DNA from: Pseudomonadota bacterium
GTDB lineage: Bacteria; Pseudomonadota; Gammaproteobacteria; Burkholderiales; Rhodocyclaceae
NCBI GenBank assembly: GCA_026399515.1
Contig: JAPLQT010000122.1
Coordinates: 1 to 64,000 of the forward strand
Direction of reading: 5' to 3'
DNA length: 64,000 bases
Under the pieces are notes generated by a model. It did not search any database. It saw only the letters and a list, made by a program, of their open reading frames with translations, and was not told where the DNA came from. Each line of letters begins with the position of its first letter. The stretch's first letter is position 1. Below are positions 217 to 45,605 of the stretch, one piece after another. Made by a program: the position numbers and the translations under genes.

Positions 217-287
217 GCCCTTACGCCTGACATAACCGGCTGGCGCGGCTTTATCGCGCCAGTCCGTGTTGATGGATGGGTAAGGGC
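217..287 (-). repeat. attC-like site of the caspase-like cassette
   Basis: Outer arms GCCCTTAC (217-224) and GTAAGGGC (280-287) are perfectly complementary. Inside them ACATAAC (230-236) and GTTGATG (268-274) resemble the two integron core sites, and CTGGCGCG pairs with CGCGCCAG around a short loop. It lies directly 3' of the minus-strand gene ending at 291, the expected place for a cassette's attC. The outer arms deviate from the consensus GTTRRRY, so the exact boundaries are uncertain. Confidence 0.6.
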
Positions 288-290
288 TTC

Positions 291-1010
291 TCATCGAAGG
301 CGCTTTAGGTTTTCCTGATTTTCAGGCGATTCATTGGTGACGAGTTGCTCCAGATTCGCCTGCGCTGCCTCAGGAGAGATATTGTTGTTGATGTACTCAA
401 TGTAGCTCTGACGACTGTTTTCGGCATGTTGGACCCAGAACATTTGATTTCCTGATGCCACCTGCATGGCATTGACAGCTATGGTGATGTGCTCGCCGCG
501 ACAGAGTTGGTGATAGAGCGTTGCGTACGCAACTGCTGTCTCTGCCCACGTTGGCTTGTTCCCCGAACCAATGATTGCGTAAAAGGGGAGAGCTATGTCT
601 TCCGGATGCATAGCCATCTGGACACCCGAATAGCCCTCACAGCTTGACATGCACACTACAAGTGAACCTCCGAGTGCCTGGTTGATCGGGCGAAGGTGTT
701 CCCGGAGCTCGCGCCATGCCATGACGTAACCATCCGAGAGTTGGATTCCTTGAGAATCACCATGCGCGCTGATATGCAGCAATGGAACAAAGCCAGGGAG
801 TCTATTCATTGCCTCAGAGAGGCCGATCTTCAAGCAGGCGTCAAACGCCTCCAATGAGATTGCAGTCTTGACAACGCACGTGATGCCATTCAACTCCACC
901 GCTTGTCGCACGATGTCGCCTTCACTACGACGATGATATAGGTCGACCGCGGACGGCGACTCAATCACAAAAACGAAGAACTTGATTCTTTGCTCAGGTG
1001 GAAGCGGCAT
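291..1010 (-). CDS. Caspase-like (CHAT/C14-type) cysteine protease cassette protein
   Basis: The 239-residue protein has the caspase-fold signature: a hydrophobic strand ending in a His-Gly pair (LLHISAHGDSQG, H79 and H83), then a strand leading into a cysteine (LVVCMSSCEGYSG, C124), with about 40 residues between. In CHAT and C14 peptidases these supply the catalytic His/Cys dyad. The N-terminal third (FFVFVIESP, then YHRRSEGDIV) fits the first strand and helix of the fold. No repeat or membrane segment is seen, so the protein is essentially a stand-alone protease domain. A strong Shine-Dalgarno (AAGGAG) lies six bases before the ATG, unlike the other cassettes. Bacterial caspase-like proteases often act in phage defence or cell-death modules, usually with a sensor; none is obvious here apart from cassette neighbours. 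The fold assignment rests on motif reading alone. Confidence 0.7.
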   Translation of the reverse strand: MPLPPEQRIKFFVFVIESPSAVDLYHRRSEGDIVRQAVELNGITCVVKTAISLEAFDACLKIGLSEAMNRLPGFVPLLHISAHGDSQGIQLSDGYVMAWRELREHLRPINQALGGSLVVCMSSCEGYSGVQMAMHPEDIALPFYAIIGSGNKPTWAETAVAYATLYHQLCRGEHITIAVNAMQVASGNQMFWVQHAENSRQSYIEYINNNISPEAAQANLEQLVTNESPENQENLKRLR

Positions 1011-1030
1011 ATGTTCTCCTTGCCCAAACG

Positions 1031-1094
1031 TGCTAACTCAGGGGCGCGAAGCCGGCTTGCCGGCGTAGCGTCCCTCTGGAGCGGCGGGTTAGAC
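1031..1094 (-). repeat. attC site between caspase-like and nuclease-like cassettes
   Basis: On the minus strand it begins GTCTAAC and ends GTTAGCA, with a near-complete inverted repeat between: the centre pairs CGCCGGC with GCCGGC around a two-base loop, flanked by arms with bulges, as in folded attC hairpins. GTTAGAC on the plus strand (1088-1094) is a perfect core site. It sits between two minus-strand ORFs, the first ending at 1117 and the second starting at 1010. Confidence 0.75.
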
Positions 1095-1116: not shown

Positions 1117-2208
1117 TTAAGAAAGCTCGCTCAGTAGAGCCAGTTCTAGTTGTGCAGGCTCCTCTGAAACTTCTAGATGCAGTTTGATTTCCATCCAGAC
1201 ACTATCCATGTCCGCGAGATCCTCGTCCGTATAGATAATGTACGTAACTCCATACTTCCTCCAGTATTTCTTGTGCTTTCTCATTTCAGCTTCAAACTTC
1301 TCCTTGGCTTCTTTGTTGTATTCGGACATAGAGCGACCAGCACCTTCGAGCTGCCCATGTGTTGACCAGGGGGAAAATTCAAAGCCGAATTTCTCTAGAC
1401 TCCATGGGTTGACTACTAGAAGGTCAAGGCGATGTTGATGCTTGTTCTTGAATGGGTCATATCGAAGTTCGGGGATGAGTATTGGGATTGAGAGTGGATT
1501 GCTGTGACCATTCACGTAGGCAATGTAGCGATCGGCAATATCAAGTTGATATTTCGATTTGCTTCGCCGAACGACATCTCGAAAGAACTGTAGATAGTCG
1601 CTGAGCTTCGAAAATGAGCGAATCTTGTTCTCGCTCATGTAACACAGCCCAGTTTCCATTACATGTGAGAGAGTCCAATACGGGTGCTTAAAGTGGCGAA
1701 TTTCCGATTTGTCATTTTCCCAAAGATTATTTACATGGCGCGGAGTGACAAGCAAACCGAATTCATCCGCATTGTTTCCAAACCAATACTCGCTTTCATC
1801 GATCTTTGGCTTGGCTTTGTAGTGCTCCTCGTAGTGCTTTAGGAACGATCCTTCCAAGAACAACGAAAGATATTTTTTGAAGTTTGGATAAGTGCCAGTA
1901 ATCAATTGGTGCATCCGAACGTGCCGAGGGTCTGCTCTCGAATCCTTCGACTTCGAATACGCTTTCTTGAGGCCGTTTAACCACCTGCTCTTGTACTCCA
2001 TTGGAGTATGAATAACGTCATCCTTGAGGTTAATGTAGTCATCGGCTCGACCACCGATAAATGCATTGAGGGAACTCTCATTGCAGTATCTACCTTCCTC
2101 AAATCTCTGAAGTTCTATAAACACACTAGGCTGAAGAGCCCTGCGCTGATCCTTAATACATTGGATCATTTTGTTCCTGGCGGTCTTGTTTGGGTCTCGT
2201 TGTGCCAT
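1117..2208 (-). CDS. Hypothetical cassette protein, possible PD-(D/E)XK nuclease
   Basis: I do not recognise this 363-residue protein by name. Its C-terminal third has the pattern of a PD-(D/E)XK nuclease core: E247 (LIPEL), then HRLDLLVVNP with D262 on a hydrophobic strand, then KFGFEFSPWS with E277 followed two residues later by S279 instead of lysine, then a long charged helix (KEKFEAEMRKHKKYW) and a strand (YGVTYIIYTDED). The first 240 residues are helical and charged (many K, R, Y, H) without a recognisable domain. The gene starts with ATG close to an attC and has no clear ribosome binding site. A role in restricting foreign DNA would suit the context but is inference; a non-nuclease restriction-like fold is equally possible. 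Confidence 0.5.
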   Translation of the reverse strand: MAQRDPNKTARNKMIQCIKDQRRALQPSVFIELQRFEEGRYCNESSLNAFIGGRADDYINLKDDVIHTPMEYKSRWLNGLKKAYSKSKDSRADPRHVRMHQLITGTYPNFKKYLSLFLEGSFLKHYEEHYKAKPKIDESEYWFGNNADEFGLLVTPRHVNNLWENDKSEIRHFKHPYWTLSHVMETGLCYMSENKIRSFSKLSDYLQFFRDVVRRSKSKYQLDIADRYIAYVNGHSNPLSIPILIPELRYDPFKNKHQHRLDLLVVNPWSLEKFGFEFSPWSTHGQLEGAGRSMSEYNKEAKEKFEAEMRKHKKYWRKYGVTYIIYTDEDLADMDSVWMEIKLHLEVSEEPAQLELALLSELS

Positions 2209-2220
2209 ATTTTTTGCAAT

Positions 2221-2290
2221 GTCTAACGTCCTAGTGCAGGGGGGCTGCGCCGCTATTTAGCGCAGAGTCCCCTGCAACGACGGGTTGGGC
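2221..2290 (-). repeat. attC site of the GNAT cassette (70 bp, near-canonical)
   Basis: On the minus strand it starts GCCCAAC and ends GTTAGAC, both perfect integron core sites. The centre folds as GCAGGGGACTCTGCGC against GCGGCGCAGCCCCCCTGC, around a short loop, with an extrahelical base or two. This is the best attC in the array. The 3' end of the GNAT gene is read from inside it. Confidence 0.85.
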
Positions 2291-2788
2291 AGCATGGCGG
2301 ACAAAGACCTGCACTGAGTGCTTGCCTCGCCCAGACGCGAAAGTGTTACCGGCTGGCACAAAACCAAGTTTGGTGAGTGACCGGTGCATAGCACTGTTCT
2401 CGGTGCGCGACGTGGCGAACACGCCAGCGCCGGCAGATGAAGCGAGTGCCGCCTGCGACAACGACAGCGAGAGCCCTTTGCGACGAGCCCCCAGAGAAAC
2501 GTACAGCCAGCCTAGCTCGTAGGGAAACTCGACTGCGGGAAGCGGGACGCCACTCTCAGAACTTACCCGACGGCGATAGCTGGCTTGAGGTTGCTTGAGC
2601 GCGGCCACGCCGACCAATTCCCCAGCAAGGCGAGCAAACACCAACGCGGGCGCGCTACTGACGCGTTCGACGAGGCCCTGCATTGAGACTTCGCCGCCAG
2701 CGCGAACAAACGCGATGAACGCCCCTCTCTCGGGAGCCGAGCAATCGCCGAAAGTCTTCACGGTCAGTTCAGCCATAGCCGTAGTCAT
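2231..2788 (-). CDS. GNAT-family N-acetyltransferase cassette protein
   Basis: A 185-residue protein with the GNAT core: LVFARLAGELVGVAALKQP (strands 2-3), ELGWLYVSLGARRKGLSLSL (strand 4 and a variant R-x-x-G-x acetyl-CoA loop), then TSRTENSAMHRSLTKLGFVP (strand 5 to helix 4, the usual N-x-x-M-x-x-x-x-x-K-x-G-F motif). The substrate is unknown; cassette GNATs often modify drugs, proteins or toxins. I place the start at the ATG at 2788; a longer TTG reading at 2797 begins inside the upstream attC and another ATG lies four codons inward. The last 14 codons (AGDSALNSGAAPLH and stop) are encoded by this cassette's own attC, so the C-terminal tail is supplied by the recombination site. Confidence 0.8.
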   Translation of the reverse strand: MTTAMAELTVKTFGDCSAPERGAFIAFVRAGGEVSMQGLVERVSSAPALVFARLAGELVGVAALKQPQASYRRRVSSESGVPLPAVEFPYELGWLYVSLGARRKGLSLSLSQAALASSAGAGVFATSRTENSAMHRSLTKLGFVPAGNTFASGRGKHSVQVFVRHAAQPVVAGDSALNSGAAPLH

Positions 2789-2791
2789 GAT

Positions 2792-2848
2792 GCCCAACGT
2801 CCGAATTGCGCGGCGCCGATAGGCGTCCGCACCAACGAGTAGTTATGT
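2792..2848 (-). repeat. attC site between GNAT and GIY-YIG cassettes
   Basis: The minus strand starts ACATAAC and ends GTTGGGC, integron core-like ends. GTGCGGACGCC and GGCGCCGCGCA pair imperfectly around a TATC loop. At 57 bp it is the shortest site of the array apart from uncertainties at the left edge. Confidence 0.7.
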
Positions 2849-2857
2849 GTCACGTTG

Positions 2858-3251: not shown

Positions 3252-3320
3252 ACATAACGTCCTGCATAACGCACCGTCACCAGCAGCGCAAAGCGGCGCT
3301 GGTGACGGTCGCTGTTGATG
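3252..3320 (-). repeat. attC-like site between GIY-YIG and four-cysteine cassettes
   Basis: A strong hairpin: CACCGTCACCAGCAGCGC pairs with GCGCTGGTGACGGT across an AAAGCG loop region. Plus-strand core-like sequences are ACATAAC (3252-3258), GCATAAC (3264-3270) and GTTGATG (3314-3320). Two core-like copies on one side leave the exact crossover point open. An outer TGACAC/GTGTCA pair (3248-3253 and 3324-3329) extends the palindrome. Confidence 0.65.
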
Positions 3321-3353
3321 CGGGTGTCAGGTGGCGTCATTTGTTCTTGCCGC

Positions 3354-3881
3354 TCATAACGCTCGGACGGCCTTGCAACTTTTGCAAAGCGCGAGCGGAA
3401 ACGTCGCCGATGGAATATGCCGAAATAGCGCATCTGTATTCTCTTGAAACAGGTGGTAGCAGTAGTCGAAAACACCCAGAATGTTCAAACCATCGACTCC
3501 GCGATTCTCGGGTTTGTCCAGATGATGGATCAGTTTGTTGGCATGCTTCCGCAATTGCCCCAGGCGCGGAAATAGGCGCCCGCGGATTACATGTAGTCCA
3601 ATTGTTGCTTCACGGCACTTTGGGCACGAGATCCGTGGTTCCTCAGGAATGTGGTTCTGGATGTCCTGCATCAGCCAAGAGTCCGCCGACCGTGTAGCGA
3701 TCGCGACGATGTATGCTGTAGAGAGCTTCTCCATCCAGTTACCCGCAGCGGCATAACTGCTGTACGCCCGAAGCGCAGTCGTGCGCTGAATGATCGCGCT
3801 AGAGATCCGGACCGTGGTCCCTTCACCGAGTTGAATTGCCGCGGCATCAATCGATTTTGGAACGAAGTCAAAATTACTCAT
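3354..3881 (-). CDS. Hypothetical cassette protein, four-cysteine helical (DUF4145/HEPN-like?)
   Basis: A 175-residue protein not recognised by name. It has two CxxC pairs, SCPKC (C86, C89) and LCKSC (C166, C169), which could form one zinc site, enclosing a helical insert. That insert contains LRKHANKLIHHLD, similar to the L-R-x-x-G-N-x-x-x-H motif of DUF4145-type HEPN-related proteins, followed by a second helix (LNILGVFDYCYHLFQ). The N-terminal 80 residues are a further predicted helical region. HEPN-like domains are frequent in RNA-targeting defence and toxin systems, but the classical R-x4-6-H dyad is not present in that spacing, so nuclease activity cannot be claimed. It is the first cassette at the presumed promoter-proximal end. 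Confidence 0.5.
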   Translation of the reverse strand: MSNFDFVPKSIDAAAIQLGEGTTVRISSAIIQRTTALRAYSSYAAAGNWMEKLSTAYIVAIATRSADSWLMQDIQNHIPEEPRISCPKCREATIGLHVIRGRLFPRLGQLRKHANKLIHHLDKPENRGVDGLNILGVFDYCYHLFQENTDALFRHIPSATFPLALCKSCKAVRAL

Positions 3882-4508: not shown

Positions 4509-6122
4509 ATGCTGCGATTGACTGAAGTCAGGCTGCCCCTCGATCATCCGCAAGATGCGCTGCCGGTCGCCATCCTCAAGCGGCTGGGTGTTGCCGAAAA
4601 TGACCTGCGTGGCTACACGGTCTTCCGCCGCGCTTACGACGCCCGCAAGAAATCGGACATCGTCCTGACCTACACGCTGGATGTGGAGGTGCGTGACGAG
4701 GCGGCGCTGCTCGAACGTCTGCGCGCCGACCGCCATGTCTCGCCCACGCCGGATACCAGTTACCGCTTCGTCGCCCGCGCGCCCGATGCGACCGACGCCA
4801 GGCAACGCCCGGTGGTGATCGGCAGCGGCCCCTGCGGCTTGTTCGCCGCCCTGATCCTGGCGCAGATGGGTTTTCGCCCTATCCTTCTGGAACGCGGCAA
4901 GTCGGTGCGCGAGCGCACCCAGGACACTTGGGGCCTGTGGCGCAAGGGCCAGCTCGATCCGGAATCCAACGTTCAGTTCGGCGAAGGCGGCGCCGGCACC
5001 TTCTCAGACGGCAAGCTGCACAGCGGCATCAAGGACCCGCAACACCGTGCCCGCAAGGTGCTGACGGAGTTCGTCGCCGCCGGCGCCCCGCCGGAAATCC
5101 TCTACGTCAGCAAACCGCACATCGGCACCTTCCGCCTGGTGACGGTGGTGGAACATCTGCGCGCCGGCATCGAAGCCTTGGGCGGCGAGATACGCTTCCG
5201 CAGCCGGGTTGAGGATATCCTCGTCGAGGACGGGCAGGTGCGCGGCGTGGTACTCGAGGATGGCGAGCAGATCGCGACCACGCATGTGGTGCTGGCCGTC
5301 GGCCACAGCGCCCGCGACACCTTTCGCATGCTCCAGCGGCGCGGCGTGTTCATCGAGGCCAAGCCTTTCTCGATGGGGGTGCGCATCGAGCATCCGCAAT
5401 CGCTGATCGACCGTGCGCGCTTCGGCAAATTCGCCGGCCATCCGCTGCTCGGCGCGGCCGACTACAAGCTGGTGCATCACTGCGCCAACGGCCGCTCGGT
5501 GTACAGCTTCTGCATGTGCCCCGGCGGTACCGTGGTGGCGGCGGCATCGGAACTGGGCGGCGTGGTCACCAACGGCATGAGCCAATATTCGCGCAACGAG
5601 CGCAACGCCAACAGCGGTCTCGTCGTCGGCATCACGCCCGCCGACTACCCCGGCGACGCCCTGGCCGGCATGGCCTTCCAGCGCCACTGGGAGGAGCGCG
5701 CCTTCGTCGCGGGCGGCGGTACTTACGACGCCCCGGCGCAGCGCGTCGGCGATTTCCTGGCCGGCCGTCCCTCCACCGCCATCGGCGCGGTGCAGCCGTC
5801 CTACACACCCGGCGTACATTGGACCGATCTATCCGCCTGCCTGCCCGATTACGTCACCGCCGCGCTGCGTGAGGCGCTGCCGGCTTTCGACAAGCAGATC
5901 CGCGGTTTCGCCATGGACGACGCGGTGCTGACCGGCGTCGAAACGCGGACCTCGTCGCCGATCCGCATCAAGCGCGGCGACGACCTGCAAAGCATCAATA
6001 CCCGTGGGCTCTACCCGGCAGGGGAAGGCGCCGGTTATGCCGGCGGAATCCTCTCGGCGGCGGTGGATGGCATCAAGACTGCGGAGGCGTTGGCTTTGGA
6101 CCTCCTAGGCGGAAAGTCTTGA
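4509..6122 (+). CDS. FAD-dependent oxidoreductase (COG2509-like)
   Basis: A 537-residue flavoprotein of the uncharacterised FAD-dependent dehydrogenase group. The N-terminal part (MLRLTEVRLPLDH, DALPVAILKRLGV, RGYTVFRRAYDARKK) is the family-specific domain. An FAD-binding Rossmann motif follows (VVIGSGPCGLFAALILAQMG), then NVQFGEGGAGTFSDGKL, which is characteristic of the group, and a C-terminal FAD motif (GLYPAGEGAGYAGGI). I chose the ATG at 4509 because homologues usually start at MLRLTE; a longer reading from 4395 adds 38 residues resembling non-coding translation. The substrate is unknown. It stands alone between the cassette array and a convergent spermidine-synthase-like gene. Confidence 0.85.
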   Translation: MLRLTEVRLPLDHPQDALPVAILKRLGVAENDLRGYTVFRRAYDARKKSDIVLTYTLDVEVRDEAALLERLRADRHVSPTPDTSYRFVARAPDATDARQRPVVIGSGPCGLFAALILAQMGFRPILLERGKSVRERTQDTWGLWRKGQLDPESNVQFGEGGAGTFSDGKLHSGIKDPQHRARKVLTEFVAAGAPPEILYVSKPHIGTFRLVTVVEHLRAGIEALGGEIRFRSRVEDILVEDGQVRGVVLEDGEQIATTHVVLAVGHSARDTFRMLQRRGVFIEAKPFSMGVRIEHPQSLIDRARFGKFAGHPLLGAADYKLVHHCANGRSVYSFCMCPGGTVVAAASELGGVVTNGMSQYSRNERNANSGLVVGITPADYPGDALAGMAFQRHWEERAFVAGGGTYDAPAQRVGDFLAGRPSTAIGAVQPSYTPGVHWTDLSACLPDYVTAALREALPAFDKQIRGFAMDDAVLTGVETRTSSPIRIKRGDDLQSINTRGLYPAGEGAGYAGGILSAAVDGIKTAEALALDLLGGKS

Positions 6123-6148
6123 ATCCTGCGCCGTCGCATCGACGGCAC

Positions 6149-6928
6149 TCATACGGCAGAGACGGGCTCAGGCGGCAGCGCATTGATCAGCGGAAGCCAC
6201 TCGCGCGCGGGCAGATGGAAACGAGATTCGATGTTTCGCGCGCGCGCGGCAAGCAGGGACTGGTCGGGAAAGGGTCCGCTTTTCATCGCCACGACGATCG
6301 AGTTACCCGCGCGGGTGGGCTCCATCATGCGTACTTGCGACTCGCCGAAGACTGCGGCGATACGCCCGGCGCTGTGAGCGCAGGCCGATTGGCGGCCGAA
6401 CACGTTTACGCTCATGACGCCGTCGTCGCCGAGCAGGCGCCGGCAATCGGCATAAAACGCCTCGCTGTCCAATGCCGGCGCGGCGGCTTCGTGGTCATAC
6501 AAATCGACGCACAAGACCTGTGCCGATCCGGCACGCGCCGCTTCAGCGACGAACACGGCGGCATCCTGTTCGAGCACCGCAAGGCGCGGTCCGTCGAGCG
6601 GCAAATGGAACGAAGCCCGGCACGCGGCGATCACCGTGGGATTTATCTCGACCGCCGTCGTTCGCATGCGCAGCTTGCCGTGGCAAAAGCGGGTGATCGA
6701 CCCGGCGCCCAGGCCGAGTTGCACTGCATGTCCCTTGTCGAGATCGGAGCCCCGGCGCAATAGCAGCCAGGCCATCATGCGCTGCGCGTATTCGAGTTCG
6801 ATGGCGAGCGGTTTGCCGACGCGCATCGCTCCTTGTACCCACTGCGTGCCCAGGCTCAGGTAGCGCACGCCGTCGGCCTCTGAAATCGTGGCGGACGGCA
6901 AGTCAAGGCATGACTTCCGCGTATTCAT
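6149..6928 (-). CDS. Spermidine synthase-like SAM-binding protein
   Basis: A 259-residue protein with a class I methyltransferase-type fold: AVQLGLGAGSITRFC is the SAM/dcSAM glycine loop, TTAVEINPTVIAACR the acidic end of strand 2, and QVLCVDLYDHEAAAP the motif that in SpeE carries the catalytic Asp. This fits spermidine synthase-family (polyamine aminopropyltransferase-like) proteins, many of which, especially short ones like this, are not proven aminopropyltransferases. The gene is convergent with the FAD oxidoreductase (26-base gap) and stands alone. Confidence 0.75.
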   Translation of the reverse strand: MNTRKSCLDLPSATISEADGVRYLSLGTQWVQGAMRVGKPLAIELEYAQRMMAWLLLRRGSDLDKGHAVQLGLGAGSITRFCHGKLRMRTTAVEINPTVIAACRASFHLPLDGPRLAVLEQDAAVFVAEAARAGSAQVLCVDLYDHEAAAPALDSEAFYADCRRLLGDDGVMSVNVFGRQSACAHSAGRIAAVFGESQVRMMEPTRAGNSIVVAMKSGPFPDQSLLAARARNIESRFHLPAREWLPLINALPPEPVSAV

Positions 6929-42543: not shown

Positions 42544-44391
42544 ATGATAGGAAACAAGGGGCTACTAGCCGCGTTAAGCGCTGCAACACTTCTGGCGGGT
42601 TGTCTTGGGGGAGGAGGCAGTCCGCCCAACCCGACCATCACCGGCCTGGCTGCCACCGGCGGCGCTCTGTCCAATGCCACGATAACCGCAAAATGTACGA
42701 CCGGCGCGGCGGTGACGGGCAAGACCGGGGCAGACGGCACTTTCTCCCTGGAACTCAACGGTCTCCAGACTTTCCCCTGCATCCTGGAGGCAAGTAATGG
42801 CACGGTGGTCTTGCACAGCTTTGCCACGGCGGCGGGTAACACCAACGTCACACCCCTGACCGATCTGGTCATTACCAGGGCGCTAGGTTCAGATGCGACC
42901 GCCGCGTTTACAAGCTTCGACGCAGCCAAGGGTACCGCGATCACCGCCGGACTGACTGCCGCAAAAGCCTATGTGAAGGCCGAGGCGACCGCACTGACAG
43001 GCGGAGCCCCATCGGGCGACCTGCTTACAGGCGTGTTCAAGGTCGGCGATGCCGACGACAAGCTGCTCGACAATCTAAAGCTCGCGCTGACGGCTGCCAG
43101 CAAGGAACTCGGCGACTTGGGCCTTGTTGCTATCTCGGGCTTGCCTCTCAAGGCAGCCCTGGACCGCGGAACGCTGGTTGACCCGGCCGCCGTGGTGACG
43201 ACACTCACCATGGCGCAGATTGACGGCGGATCGTTGGCCAGCGGTCTACAGGCGATCAGCGGCAAGGCCAAGTGCGACGTGAAGGTAGTGGCTCTGAACT
43301 ACAACACCATAGGCGTGAGCGGCGAAAAGACCAATGCTTCAGGTGTACTGCTGGTGCCGACGGGCAGTTGCACCGCCGCTGCCGGTCTGCTCGCCTACGC
43401 CAAGGGCACCGACGTACAGAAGCCCCGCACGCTGGCAAACCCGACCGACGGCGAGACCTTCATGCTGACCGCTATTTACGCCGCACAGGGTTATGCTGTG
43501 GTCGCCACGGACTATCTCGGCTACGCCAAGTCGGCCTACACTTACCATCCTTACCTCCATGCCGATTCCGAGGCGTCCTCGGTGATCGACTCCATCCGGG
43601 CGGCCCGAAATGCCGCCAAGACGGTAGGCGCATCCCTGTCCGGCAAGGTGATGCTGGCGGGGTATTCACAGGGCGGGCACTCTTCAATGGCGACACATCG
43701 CGCCATCGAGCGTGACAACGCCAAGGAAATCAATGTGGTCGCCGGTGCGCACCTCGCGGGCCCCTACAACCTGTCGGCTTCGATGAAATCCACGGCTGTT
43801 ATCGCCGGCTATCAGTTCTTCGTGCCCTTCATAGTCACGTCATGGCAAAAAGTCTATGGGACGATTTACAGCGACGTCAAAACAGTCTTCAAGACGCCCT
43901 ATTCTGATTACATCGAAAGCTTGCTGCCCAGCCCAACGCTTAACTACACCACCCTGGTAACCTCGGGCAAGGTTCCCGGCGCAGCAGGTGAAACGCCCAC
44001 GCAGGCGCGCGATGCGATGTTTCAAGCGGCCTTCATTGCCGACATACAGACCAACGACAAGAGTCCCCTATATCTGGCGGCCAAGAAAAATGACCTGCTG
44101 GGCTGGAATCCGAAGTCCAAAGTCATGCTATGTGGCGGTGCCGGCGATCCAACCGTGCCGCCCGCGTTGCACCTGATCCCGATGAAGGCCGATTTTGACA
44201 GCCGCAAGCTCACCAATGTCACCACGGTGGACGTGGACCCCATGGTCCAAGCGGTCTTCGGCACCGGCGGCAAGGCACCGACCGACCCATCCCTGCCCGC
44301 ATTTGCGACCTACTATGGCAACTACCACGGCGTATACGAACCCCCGTTCTGTAACGCCCAGGCCAAGGCGCTATTTGACTCGGTAAGCTGA
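42544..44391 (+). CDS. Secreted lipase-like alpha/beta hydrolase lipoprotein
   Basis: A 615-residue predicted lipoprotein: signal KGLLAALSAATLLAG followed by the lipobox cysteine C20. After a glycine-rich linker and a small beta domain (ITGLAATGGALSNATITA, carboxypeptidase-like) comes an alpha/beta hydrolase resembling secretory lipases: AVVATDYLGYAKSAY, nucleophile elbow AGYSQGGHSS with Ser near residue 374, acid loop LCGGAGDPTVPPALH and histidine YYGNYHGVYEPP near the C terminus. GAGGAGATACGG precedes the ATG at 42544; the longer frame from 42418 lacks one. A textbook terminator follows. Confidence 0.85.
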   Translation: MIGNKGLLAALSAATLLAGCLGGGGSPPNPTITGLAATGGALSNATITAKCTTGAAVTGKTGADGTFSLELNGLQTFPCILEASNGTVVLHSFATAAGNTNVTPLTDLVITRALGSDATAAFTSFDAAKGTAITAGLTAAKAYVKAEATALTGGAPSGDLLTGVFKVGDADDKLLDNLKLALTAASKELGDLGLVAISGLPLKAALDRGTLVDPAAVVTTLTMAQIDGGSLASGLQAISGKAKCDVKVVALNYNTIGVSGEKTNASGVLLVPTGSCTAAAGLLAYAKGTDVQKPRTLANPTDGETFMLTAIYAAQGYAVVATDYLGYAKSAYTYHPYLHADSEASSVIDSIRAARNAAKTVGASLSGKVMLAGYSQGGHSSMATHRAIERDNAKEINVVAGAHLAGPYNLSASMKSTAVIAGYQFFVPFIVTSWQKVYGTIYSDVKTVFKTPYSDYIESLLPSPTLNYTTLVTSGKVPGAAGETPTQARDAMFQAAFIADIQTNDKSPLYLAAKKNDLLGWNPKSKVMLCGGAGDPTVPPALHLIPMKADFDSRKLTNVTTVDVDPMVQAVFGTGGKAPTDPSLPAFATYYGNYHGVYEPPFCNAQAKALFDSVS

Positions 44392-44407
44392 AGCACGTCG
44401 GGAGATG

Positions 44408-44442
44408 AAATGGAGCGCCTCCCCGGCGCTCCATTTTTTTTT
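44408..44442 (+). terminator. Rho-independent terminator of the lipase gene
   Basis: Stem AAATGGAGCGCC (44408-44419) pairs perfectly with GGCGCTCCATTT (44425-44436) around TCCCC, and is followed by a run of T residues to 44442. It begins 16 bases after the lipase stop. Because the A-run on the other side is short, it works chiefly for the plus strand. Confidence 0.9.
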
Positions 44443-44501
44443 GCGCGGAGGTTGCTACTCCGCTTGCGAACGGCAAACACCAAGCGATATGGTTGGCGGC
44501 C

Positions 44502-45605
44502 CTAAGCCGCCCTGTCGGAACTCCGCTGGTAGTCCTCCATGAAGCCCATCAGTTTTTCGACCGCGGCGATGGCCAAGGCATTGTAAATCGAAGCCCGGAC
44601 GCCTCCGACGGCACGATGGCCGGACAAGCCCGAAAATCCAGCGGCCGTTGCCGCAGCCAGGAAATGATTTTCAACTTCCGGATTAGCCAGATTGAATGTG
44701 ACGTTCATCATGGAGCGGTCCTGAGGCTCGACCCTGCCCCGATAAAATCCTTGGCTTTCGTCCAACAGCTTATAGAGCAGTTCGGCCTTGGTCCGGTTCA
44801 GCTCGGCCATGCGCTCCACGCCGCCGATTTCGGCCATCATCCAACGGGTAACCAGTAGCACCACGTAGATCGCAAGAACCGGCGGAGTATTGAAGTTGGA
44901 ATGCGCCTCGATCTGGCTGGGATAGTCCAGAAAGCCGGGAAGGTTTTCAGGAGCGTCCTTGAGCAACGCATCGCGGATCAGAACCACGGTCACCCCGGCC
45001 GGGCCGAGGTTCTTCTGGGCATGGGCGTAGATCAGGGAAAACCGTTCCGCTTCGCAGGGGCGGGACAGGAAGTCTGAGGACATGTCGCAGACACGGGGCA
45101 CATCGTCCCGTCCCAAGACCCGATGAAACTGGAGTCCTTCCACGGTTTCATTGGAAACATAATGAATATAAGGTGCGTCCGCTGAGAAGGACAGTTCGTC
45201 GTCTCCGGGCAGTCGCCGGAAATCGCTCGCCTCGCCGCTCCAGACGACGCGAACCGGACCTTCGCGGCGTGCTTCGGGAAGCGCCTTCCCGCTCCAGTAG
45301 CCGGTGTGCAGGTATTCCGCGGCAGACGTTTTGCCTCGCAGCAGGGTCATCGGCACCATGGAGAATTGTTGCGTTGCCCCGCCTTGCAGCAACAACACGT
45401 GATAATCCCCGGATAGCCCAAGGAGCTTGCAGATATTGGTTTCCACCTCGGCGACGATGGATGCGAACCAGTCCGAACGGTGACTGATAGCCAGGACCGA
45501 CAGACCGACTTCGGGTACCGCGATCACGGCTTCCTGGACCTGTAGCAGCACGCTCTCGGGCAATGCACCCGGCCCGCCGGAGAAATTCAGGCTGTTGCGG
45601 TTCAT
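44502..45605 (-). CDS. serC: Phosphoserine aminotransferase-like protein
   Basis: A 367-residue class V PLP aminotransferase matching SerC: NFSGGPGALPESVL (start), LLLQGGATQQFSMVP, DMSSDFLSRP, PLP lysine in YAHAQKNLGPAGVT, HSNFNTPPVLAIYV and GFSGLSGHRAVGGVRASIYN at the end. It would make 3-phosphoserine from 3-phosphohydroxypyruvate. It is somewhat divergent, and its start overlaps the stop of an ATP-grasp gene by four bases, an unusual partner, so a specialised role in making a serine-derived compound is possible. I cannot tell whether the genome has another serC. Confidence 0.88.
   Translation of the reverse strand: MNRNSLNFSGGPGALPESVLLQVQEAVIAVPEVGLSVLAISHRSDWFASIVAEVETNICKLLGLSGDYHVLLLQGGATQQFSMVPMTLLRGKTSAAEYLHTGYWSGKALPEARREGPVRVVWSGEASDFRRLPGDDELSFSADAPYIHYVSNETVEGLQFHRVLGRDDVPRVCDMSSDFLSRPCEAERFSLIYAHAQKNLGPAGVTVVLIRDALLKDAPENLPGFLDYPSQIEAHSNFNTPPVLAIYVVLLVTRWMMAEIGGVERMAELNRTKAELLYKLLDESQGFYRGRVEPQDRSMMNVTFNLANPEVENHFLAAATAAGFSGLSGHRAVGGVRASIYNALAIAAVEKLMGFMEDYQRSSDRAA

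Follow-up and report, generated by a model that had tools for sequence, protein, structure and literature searches.

The protein encoded next to the contig edge described here very probably adopts a caspase/CHAT-type fold with an intact His-Cys dyad, as judged from a predicted structure and the alignment of its relatives, and we hold with a like degree of confidence that its gene is an integron cassette, composed of a single ORF with attC sites on both sides. The protein, which on the predicted structure consists of a CHAT-type catalytic domain followed by a helical tail, belongs to an uncatalogued, minimal caspase-fold family. The reading we favor, at about even confidence, is that of a minimal stand-alone CHAT/caspase-type effector, serving in anti-phage or stress responses and spread as a single gene.

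A conserved coding sequence with a probable His-Cys dyad

The gene is a 239-codon ORF on the minus strand of the window (the whole stretch of 64,000 nucleotides that was analyzed), with an ATG start and a stop codon at positions 291-293 [Table 1]. The first-pass annotation had described an ORF of this size with its own ribosome-binding site, leaving the strand unstated, and an AAGGAG motif is indeed found five bases ahead of the ATG. Between the window gene and its five close homologues synonymous change is saturated, with non-synonymous change amounting to just 15-31%, and dN/dS is 0.044 in the sole unsaturated pair, formed by two Polynucleobacter genes. These values rule out a chance ORF; the window gene is a real protein-coding gene under strong purifying selection.

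H79 and H83 (within LLHISAHG) and C124 (within LVVCMSSCEG) had together been put forward as the CHAT/caspase dyad, a proposal that stands for two of the three residues. All 24 aligned family members have H83, and C124 occurs in 23 of 23 (the truncated frame L078 has no residue at this position and was dropped), counts that omit L013 and L019 as near copies of L012 and L017, retain the near-identical pair L074/L075 and, as for H79, are favored by the recruitment of members with profiles that contained the dyad columns. Relatives with as little as 17% identity retain both residues. H79 is present in 23 of 24 members and is replaced by Q in one relative in which H83 and C124 are intact, so that H79 was rejected as a catalytic residue. 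With H79 not fully conserved, the catalytic histidine is likely to be H83, which would form the dyad with C124; H79 is probably structural. Among the 24 aligned members, G84 and W99 are each conserved in 22, and the first cysteine of LVVCMSSC is not conserved.

Table 1 Features at the contig-edge end of the window (z, hairpin or fold score against single-base shuffles)
Feature	Position	Strand	Evidence
Multi-copy element end at contig edge	1..141		Ends of three other contigs match identically over 115-140 bases
attC-like site closing the caspase-like cassette on its 3' side (R'' at 280-287 and R' at 217-224; core GTA, non-canonical)	217..287	-	Recurs three times near an integron integrase; R boxes complementary in situ
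Caspase/CHAT-like protein, 239 aa	291..1010	-	ORF; conserved family; AF2 model pLDDT 85.6, pTM 0.87; SAVED-CHAT Z 17.8
C124 codon, predicted catalytic cysteine	639..641	-	C124 in 23/23 (one truncated frame left out)
H83 codon, predicted catalytic histidine	762..764	-	H83 in 24/24 family members
H79 codon, near-invariant, probably structural	774..776	-	23/24; Q in one relative keeping H83 and C124
Ribosome-binding site AAGGAG, 5 nt ahead of ATG	1016..1021	-	Sequence
attC of preceding cassette; its R' (1030-1037) bounds the caspase-like cassette on the 5' side	1030..1094	-	Hairpin z -2.5; box analysis
Preceding cassette ORF, 363 aa, no Pfam/PADLOC match	1117..2208	-	Weak PHROGs match of unknown function, E 0.012; end rule 7/7
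attC after GNAT-like cassette	2221..2290	-	attC scan; fold z -4.0
GNAT acetyltransferase-like cassette ORF	2231..2797	-	Pfam Acetyltransf_1 E 0.0011, 19.7 bits, just below cut-off 20.7; end rule 7/7
attC; end rule 7/7	2792..2853	-	Hairpin no better than in shuffled sequence, z -0.5
Endonuclease-like cassette ORF, 124 aa	2858..3232	-	phrog_1111 endonuclease E 4.7e-10; end rule 7/7
attC with a strong hairpin; R'' box judged degenerate on inspection	3252..3321	-	Fold z -5.6
First cassette ORF of the window, 175 aa, no family match	3354..3881	-	ORF; Pfam, PHROGs

Predicted fold and family assignment

An AlphaFold2 model of the window protein was built from eight sequences and reached a pLDDT of 85.6 and a pTM of 0.87. 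In this model, H83 sits close to where strand 75-85 ends, and C124 comes right after the next core strand (118-122), which is the caspase arrangement, at the ends of adjacent core strands, and agrees with the strand context that had been read from the sequence. A Foldseek search with the model returned the CHAT-containing structure SAVED-CHAT (8tl0) on top (E 1.1e-7), followed by legumains and caspases. A second structural comparison again placed SAVED-CHAT first (Z 17.8 over 180 residues, 3.3 Å, 12% identity), with caspase-7 at Z 13.8, legumain at Z 13.4 and caspase-8 at Z 13-14. Residues 9-205 of the window protein align with the CHAT part of 8tl0 only (chain residues 304-514), and this core is followed by a tail of ~35 mostly helical residues. 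The predicted model thus has the caspase-like alpha/beta core of the caspase-fold cysteine peptidases, a group that we take to be clan CD, and bears out the caspase fold suggested by the first-pass annotation. A relative with 27% identity that lies beside Gabija genes (L023) was modelled separately; its model (pLDDT 69) shows the same order of core elements and again has SAVED-CHAT as best match (Z 15.4). In a library of viral structures, an uncharacterised phage protein and caspase-like proteins of giant viruses were among the best matches.

The fold includes proteins with other roles, and Raptor chains and peptide ligases are found among the structural matches, as would be the case if the family were a pseudo-enzyme scaffold, a ligase or another hydrolase; given that each dyad position is unchanged in all members covering it, we consider a caspase fold with other or no chemistry very improbable.

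Searches at the sequence level returned weak signals. The Pfam CHAT family (PF12770) matched residues 73-138 with 13.1 bits (E 0.064), short of its curated cut-off of 24 bits, and had no match at E ≤ 0.001 in the genome that carries the window. For 11 members of the family, NCBIfam yielded sub-threshold matches and no family over its cut-off; a weak match on the tail was to the TPR protein BatC (E 0.042, 13.3 vs 175 bits). Sequence searches of the PDB with the single protein and with two profiles gave chance matches only, and neither the window protein nor its Salmonella relative found a match among 50,697 phage records. A type IV restriction identity, the sole PADLOC match of the window protein (E 7e-4, residues 151-236), was rejected, as fold and dyad point elsewhere. 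No fused sensor domain was recognized in the 239 residues, in keeping with what had been claimed: Pfam offers nothing beyond the weak CHAT match, and the caspase core fills nearly the entire protein.

The part of the model core with the lowest confidence is the stretch around and after C124 (residues 121-140, with a loop at ~125-140). Caspases are activated by a cut in a linker located after the catalytic cysteine, and it is a guess, by analogy, that the window protein might process itself near residues 121-140.

Integron cassettes at the contig edge

Between the contig edge (window base 1, the first base of the contig) and ~3,900 lie five minus-strand, cassette-like ORFs, and the GC content of this stretch is 52.2% compared to 62.1% for the rest of the window. 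The attC sites at both ends of the caspase-like cassette were missed by a strict attC scan and were located by sequence reading and a genome-wide DNA match. On the 5' side, the caspase-like gene begins just past the R' box of the preceding attC. On the 3' side, a 71-base site begins three bases past the stop codon; the overlapping stretch 202-283 scores as a hairpin with z -2.7 against single-base shuffles, which are a less stringent null than dinucleotide ones. This site matches, at 80-82% identity, three sites on contig 22 of the same genome that lie between cassette-like ORFs, 2-4 kb from an integron integrase (43680-44633). Because it recurs in the array next to the integrase, the site is an attC of a family that this genome uses. 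The claim that the gene is an integron cassette was thereby upheld, with the qualification that the R boxes of the 3' site (GTAAGGG/CCCTTAC) are non-canonical: they are complementary to each other and complement the start of the caspase-like cassette at only 4 of 7 positions, whereas each of the three neighboring cassettes follows the R''/R' cassette end rule at 7 of 7. These boxes reflect either drift of the site or a rearrangement at the cassette's 3' end, and remobilisation of the caspase-like cassette may be impaired. The core of the site reads GTA in place of GTT and the opposite box is changed to match, as in a compensated, possibly inactive, attC.

Two integron integrases score over the cut-off in this genome, on contigs 22 and 87, and none does on the contig of the window. 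The end of a multi-copy element at the contig edge probably explains why the contig breaks at this point. This element end has one weak plasmid match, annotated as a tyrosine-type recombinase.

Close homologues and distribution of the family

Genome contigs yielded five close homologues, from Gallionella (75% identity), Dyella (75%), two Polynucleobacter (67%) and an Acidobacteria assembly (57%). The Acidobacteria relative is a clean single-gene cassette that starts with GTTAGGAG and ends with CTCCTAAC, obeys the end rule at 8 of 8 positions, and is followed on its contig by two further cassettes that obey the same rule. Integron integrases over the cut-off number one in the Gallionella genome, four in Dyella and one in Acidobacteria; the two Polynucleobacter genomes have none. 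At least some members of the close branch thus move as integron cassettes. No obvious attC flanks the Gallionella copy, which lies between genes that we read as arnB and arnC, in what is presumably a lipid A (arn) operon (L010:4849-7771), 15 bases after one gene and ~60 before the next. By eye, an apparent right half of an attC precedes the Dyella copy. A similar 91-aa ORF follows both Polynucleobacter copies (L012:6768-7043 and L013:6769-7044), the one at L012 being without Pfam match.

Scanning of 41 neighbors (37 from the five close loci and four window cassettes) gave one match at E ≤ 1e-15, and no complete defence system was recognized at the five closest loci with PADLOC-type models applied to ORFs of at least 150 aa within 5 kb. 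The match is a C-terminal helicase fragment located ~4.9 kb from the Dyella copy (L011:14-1093), which fits the helicase end of DpdE (3.7e-141), ZorD and others; we read it as a putative general SNF2-type helicase.

In genome draws that included the window's own genome each time, family members were present in 2 of 369 genomes of the class, 3 of 200 of the order, 6 of 398 of the phylum and 4 of 395 of the family. Relatives were also found in 19 of 72,556 plasmid records, in two contigs of a virus collection and, by a DNA-level search with the Salmonella relative, in 6 of 5,426 E. coli genomes. The relatives from Salmonella, Vibrio and E. coli (186-194 aa) are tail-less and correspond to the bare core; another branch (~270-300 aa) has a longer tail. 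Most of the relatives in the examined records of E. coli, Salmonella and Klebsiella are annotated as hypothetical proteins. Two relatives (L017:3854-4732 and L019:2782-3669, the latter annotated as an HMG-box protein) lie near the replication gene of ~110-kb IncFIB Klebsiella plasmids, which we presume to resemble phage-plasmids. The phage-protein family phrog_38219 is matched by the L017 relative (E 3.5e-14), by L023 (4.8e-9) and, weakly, by the window protein (6e-4).

The strong purifying selection on the close branch, as measured in its one unsaturated pair, and the finding of its members alone or in mostly non-defence surroundings, including the apparent lipid A modification operon of Gallionella, would suit a conserved regulatory or stress protease whose cleavage target is a specific host regulator and which integrons carry for its general benefit rather than as an immune effector. 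We regard this as the less likely of the two roles, though one to be kept in view, as the distribution of the family is very patchy (see the phylum and family draws above) and its distant relatives lie near several unrelated defence systems.

Genomic settings of the distant relatives

A defence-type neighbor was present at no fewer than 8 of 17 distant loci (L016, L023, L035, L041, L042, L043, L080 and L084), and a named system at 5 (E ≤ 1e-15); the former count is a lower bound, and the 17 loci omit L015 and L036, whose site is of the L035 kind, L019 and L075, which nearly duplicate L017 and L074, and the truncated L078. The test considered ORFs of at least 150 aa within 5 kb, so that small partners are missed. 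For 11 of the loci, 71 neighbors were scanned; the first 25 of the 113 families matched go back to Gabija, Lamassu, Drt5, the PDC-S05 protein of L042 and the dinD gene of E. coli. For the six further loci, 9 of 43 neighbors were scanned.

At L023, the relative lies directly after GajA and GajB of Gabija (E 1.2e-250 and 2.6e-237). It is on the same strand as this full gene pair (L023:1342-6690) and could be a third Gabija gene. Lamassu LmuA/LmuB genes lie ~2 kb from the L041 relative, and Drt5 lies near the L043 relative. IetAS is more than 1.3 kb away from the relative at L035, in a cargo hotspot. The remaining neighbors comprise a SIR2 protein (L016), an HNH nuclease like those of type IV restriction enzymes (L042) and a type II-like nuclease (L084). 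At L080 (433-10475), predicted ORFs form a type I restriction-modification operon in which the relative (5446-6321) overlaps hsdS by 8 bp; the operon also holds a PDC-S02 protein, and the relative is a possible translationally coupled caspase-like accessory. The relative at L041 (1011-8876) follows a PD-DExK-like gene by ~40 bp and just precedes an HNH nuclease gene, making up a possible caspase-nuclease operon. Several other distant loci resemble ordinary chromosome. One relative (L081) lies between genes that we take to be ribosomal-protein and rpoB genes, a setting that also fits the housekeeping or stress role considered above.

As a control, 15 regions chosen arbitrarily, mostly in the same records and none in the six further genomes, supplied 109 proteins for scanning. 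None of these proteins matched the models of Gabija, Lamassu, Drt5, type I restriction-modification or IetAS, and 11 models were matched by one protein each. Named systems were thus present at 5 of 17 loci versus 0 of 15 control regions (Fisher p 0.031 one-sided, 0.046 two-sided, for a comparison chosen post hoc). PADLOC candidate models also match the core gene dinD of E. coli, indicating that they respond to ordinary genes, and with 11 models matched in the control as well the defence enrichment is modest. The link to defence is suggestive across the family at large but unproven in the close branch.

The first-pass annotation had offered triggering by a neighboring cassette product as one option, and this found no support: the adjacent 363-aa cassette protein, the one neighbor searched for, was found in 0 of 8 other genomes searched that carry a family member, and this product was accordingly rejected as a partner. 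Neighbors of family members differ at nearly every locus, and no fixed or conserved partner was found. Both results weigh against an effector that depends on a partner sensor, encoded by a neighboring cassette or another host gene, in the manner of SAVED-CHAT, TPR-CHAT and canu. Such dependence would accord with the hsdS overlap at L080, the close spacing to the PD-DExK-like gene at L041, the same kind of 91-aa ORF after both Polynucleobacter copies, and the CRISPR, gasdermin, NLR, Thoeris and canu systems in which bacterial caspase-like proteases are reported (PMC12799240); on balance we judge it unlikely.

Proposed mode of action

Beyond the computed properties described above, and returning to the stand-alone effector that we favor, we infer proteolysis under a zymogen-like control, in an anti-phage or stress role that might entail cell death. 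The protease would be inactive at first, its active site being put in order by a signal derived from phage or stress, or else by self-association. Once active, it would cleave a single protein or a few, of host or invader origin, and this cleavage would stop growth or replication.

A bolder version would see in the family a sensor-less caspase-type immune or cell-death enzyme of fewer than 240 residues (186-194 aa in the bare-core relatives) that is self-sufficient and moves across phyla as a one-gene integron cassette, and whose relatives serve as an add-on to the unrelated systems Gabija, Lamassu, DRT, type I restriction-modification and IetAS; we consider it doubtful, slightly more so than the regulatory protease. 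A bare catalytic domain that moves on one cassette would make a simple model for switching on a protease without a partner, and proteolytic effectors would join the list of what integrons store.

Comparison with known systems

Bacterial caspase-like immune proteases have mostly been described as fused to, or paired with, sensors. SAVED-CHAT, a CRISPR-linked protein (PDB 8tl0), is the best fold match of two members of the present family, yet it carries a SAVED ligand-binding domain that the window protein lacks. TPR-CHAT (Csx29, Craspase) is likewise a CHAT-type caspase-like protease acting in immunity (PMC9729208), but binds a CRISPR effector, whereas the window protein has no TPR match in Pfam at E ≤ 1. 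The type III CRISPR, gasdermin, NLR, Thoeris and canu systems are those in which caspase-like proteases of bacteria are reported in PMC12799240. Canu (CanABC) features a caspase-family protease in defence islands, and some distant relatives described here similarly lie near nucleases; CanA, however, has an Ig-like domain and acts with CanB and a nuclease (PMC12799240), while the window protein has no Ig domain in Pfam, no conserved nuclease and an adjacent cassette that is not co-inherited.

A precedent in form is Borvo, a single-gene anti-phage system with a CHAT protease domain, which shares both its single-gene form and its CHAT-type domain with the window protein (PMC10952713; PMC11201134). 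The window protein had no PADLOC match to Borvo at E ≤ 1, in a library not confirmed to hold a Borvo model. With Borvo a single-gene CHAT system, a stand-alone CHAT defence protein is not new in kind. Within the libraries and literature searched, what is new is the family itself, its bare form and its carriage on cassettes; the same literature yielded no caspase-type integron-cassette protein. The matching family phrog_38219 is an uncharacterised family of phage proteins with no function assigned, and is best matched by the longer relatives (~270-290 aa).

Integrons are described as stores of anti-phage genes in two reports (PMC12409362; PMC12444791). In the former, cassettes with anti-phage activity number at least 16 of 179 in V. 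cholerae and 9 of 57 tested in V. parahaemolyticus. Like the caspase-like cassette of the window, these Vibrio anti-phage cassettes are single small genes flanked by attC sites (PMC12409362).
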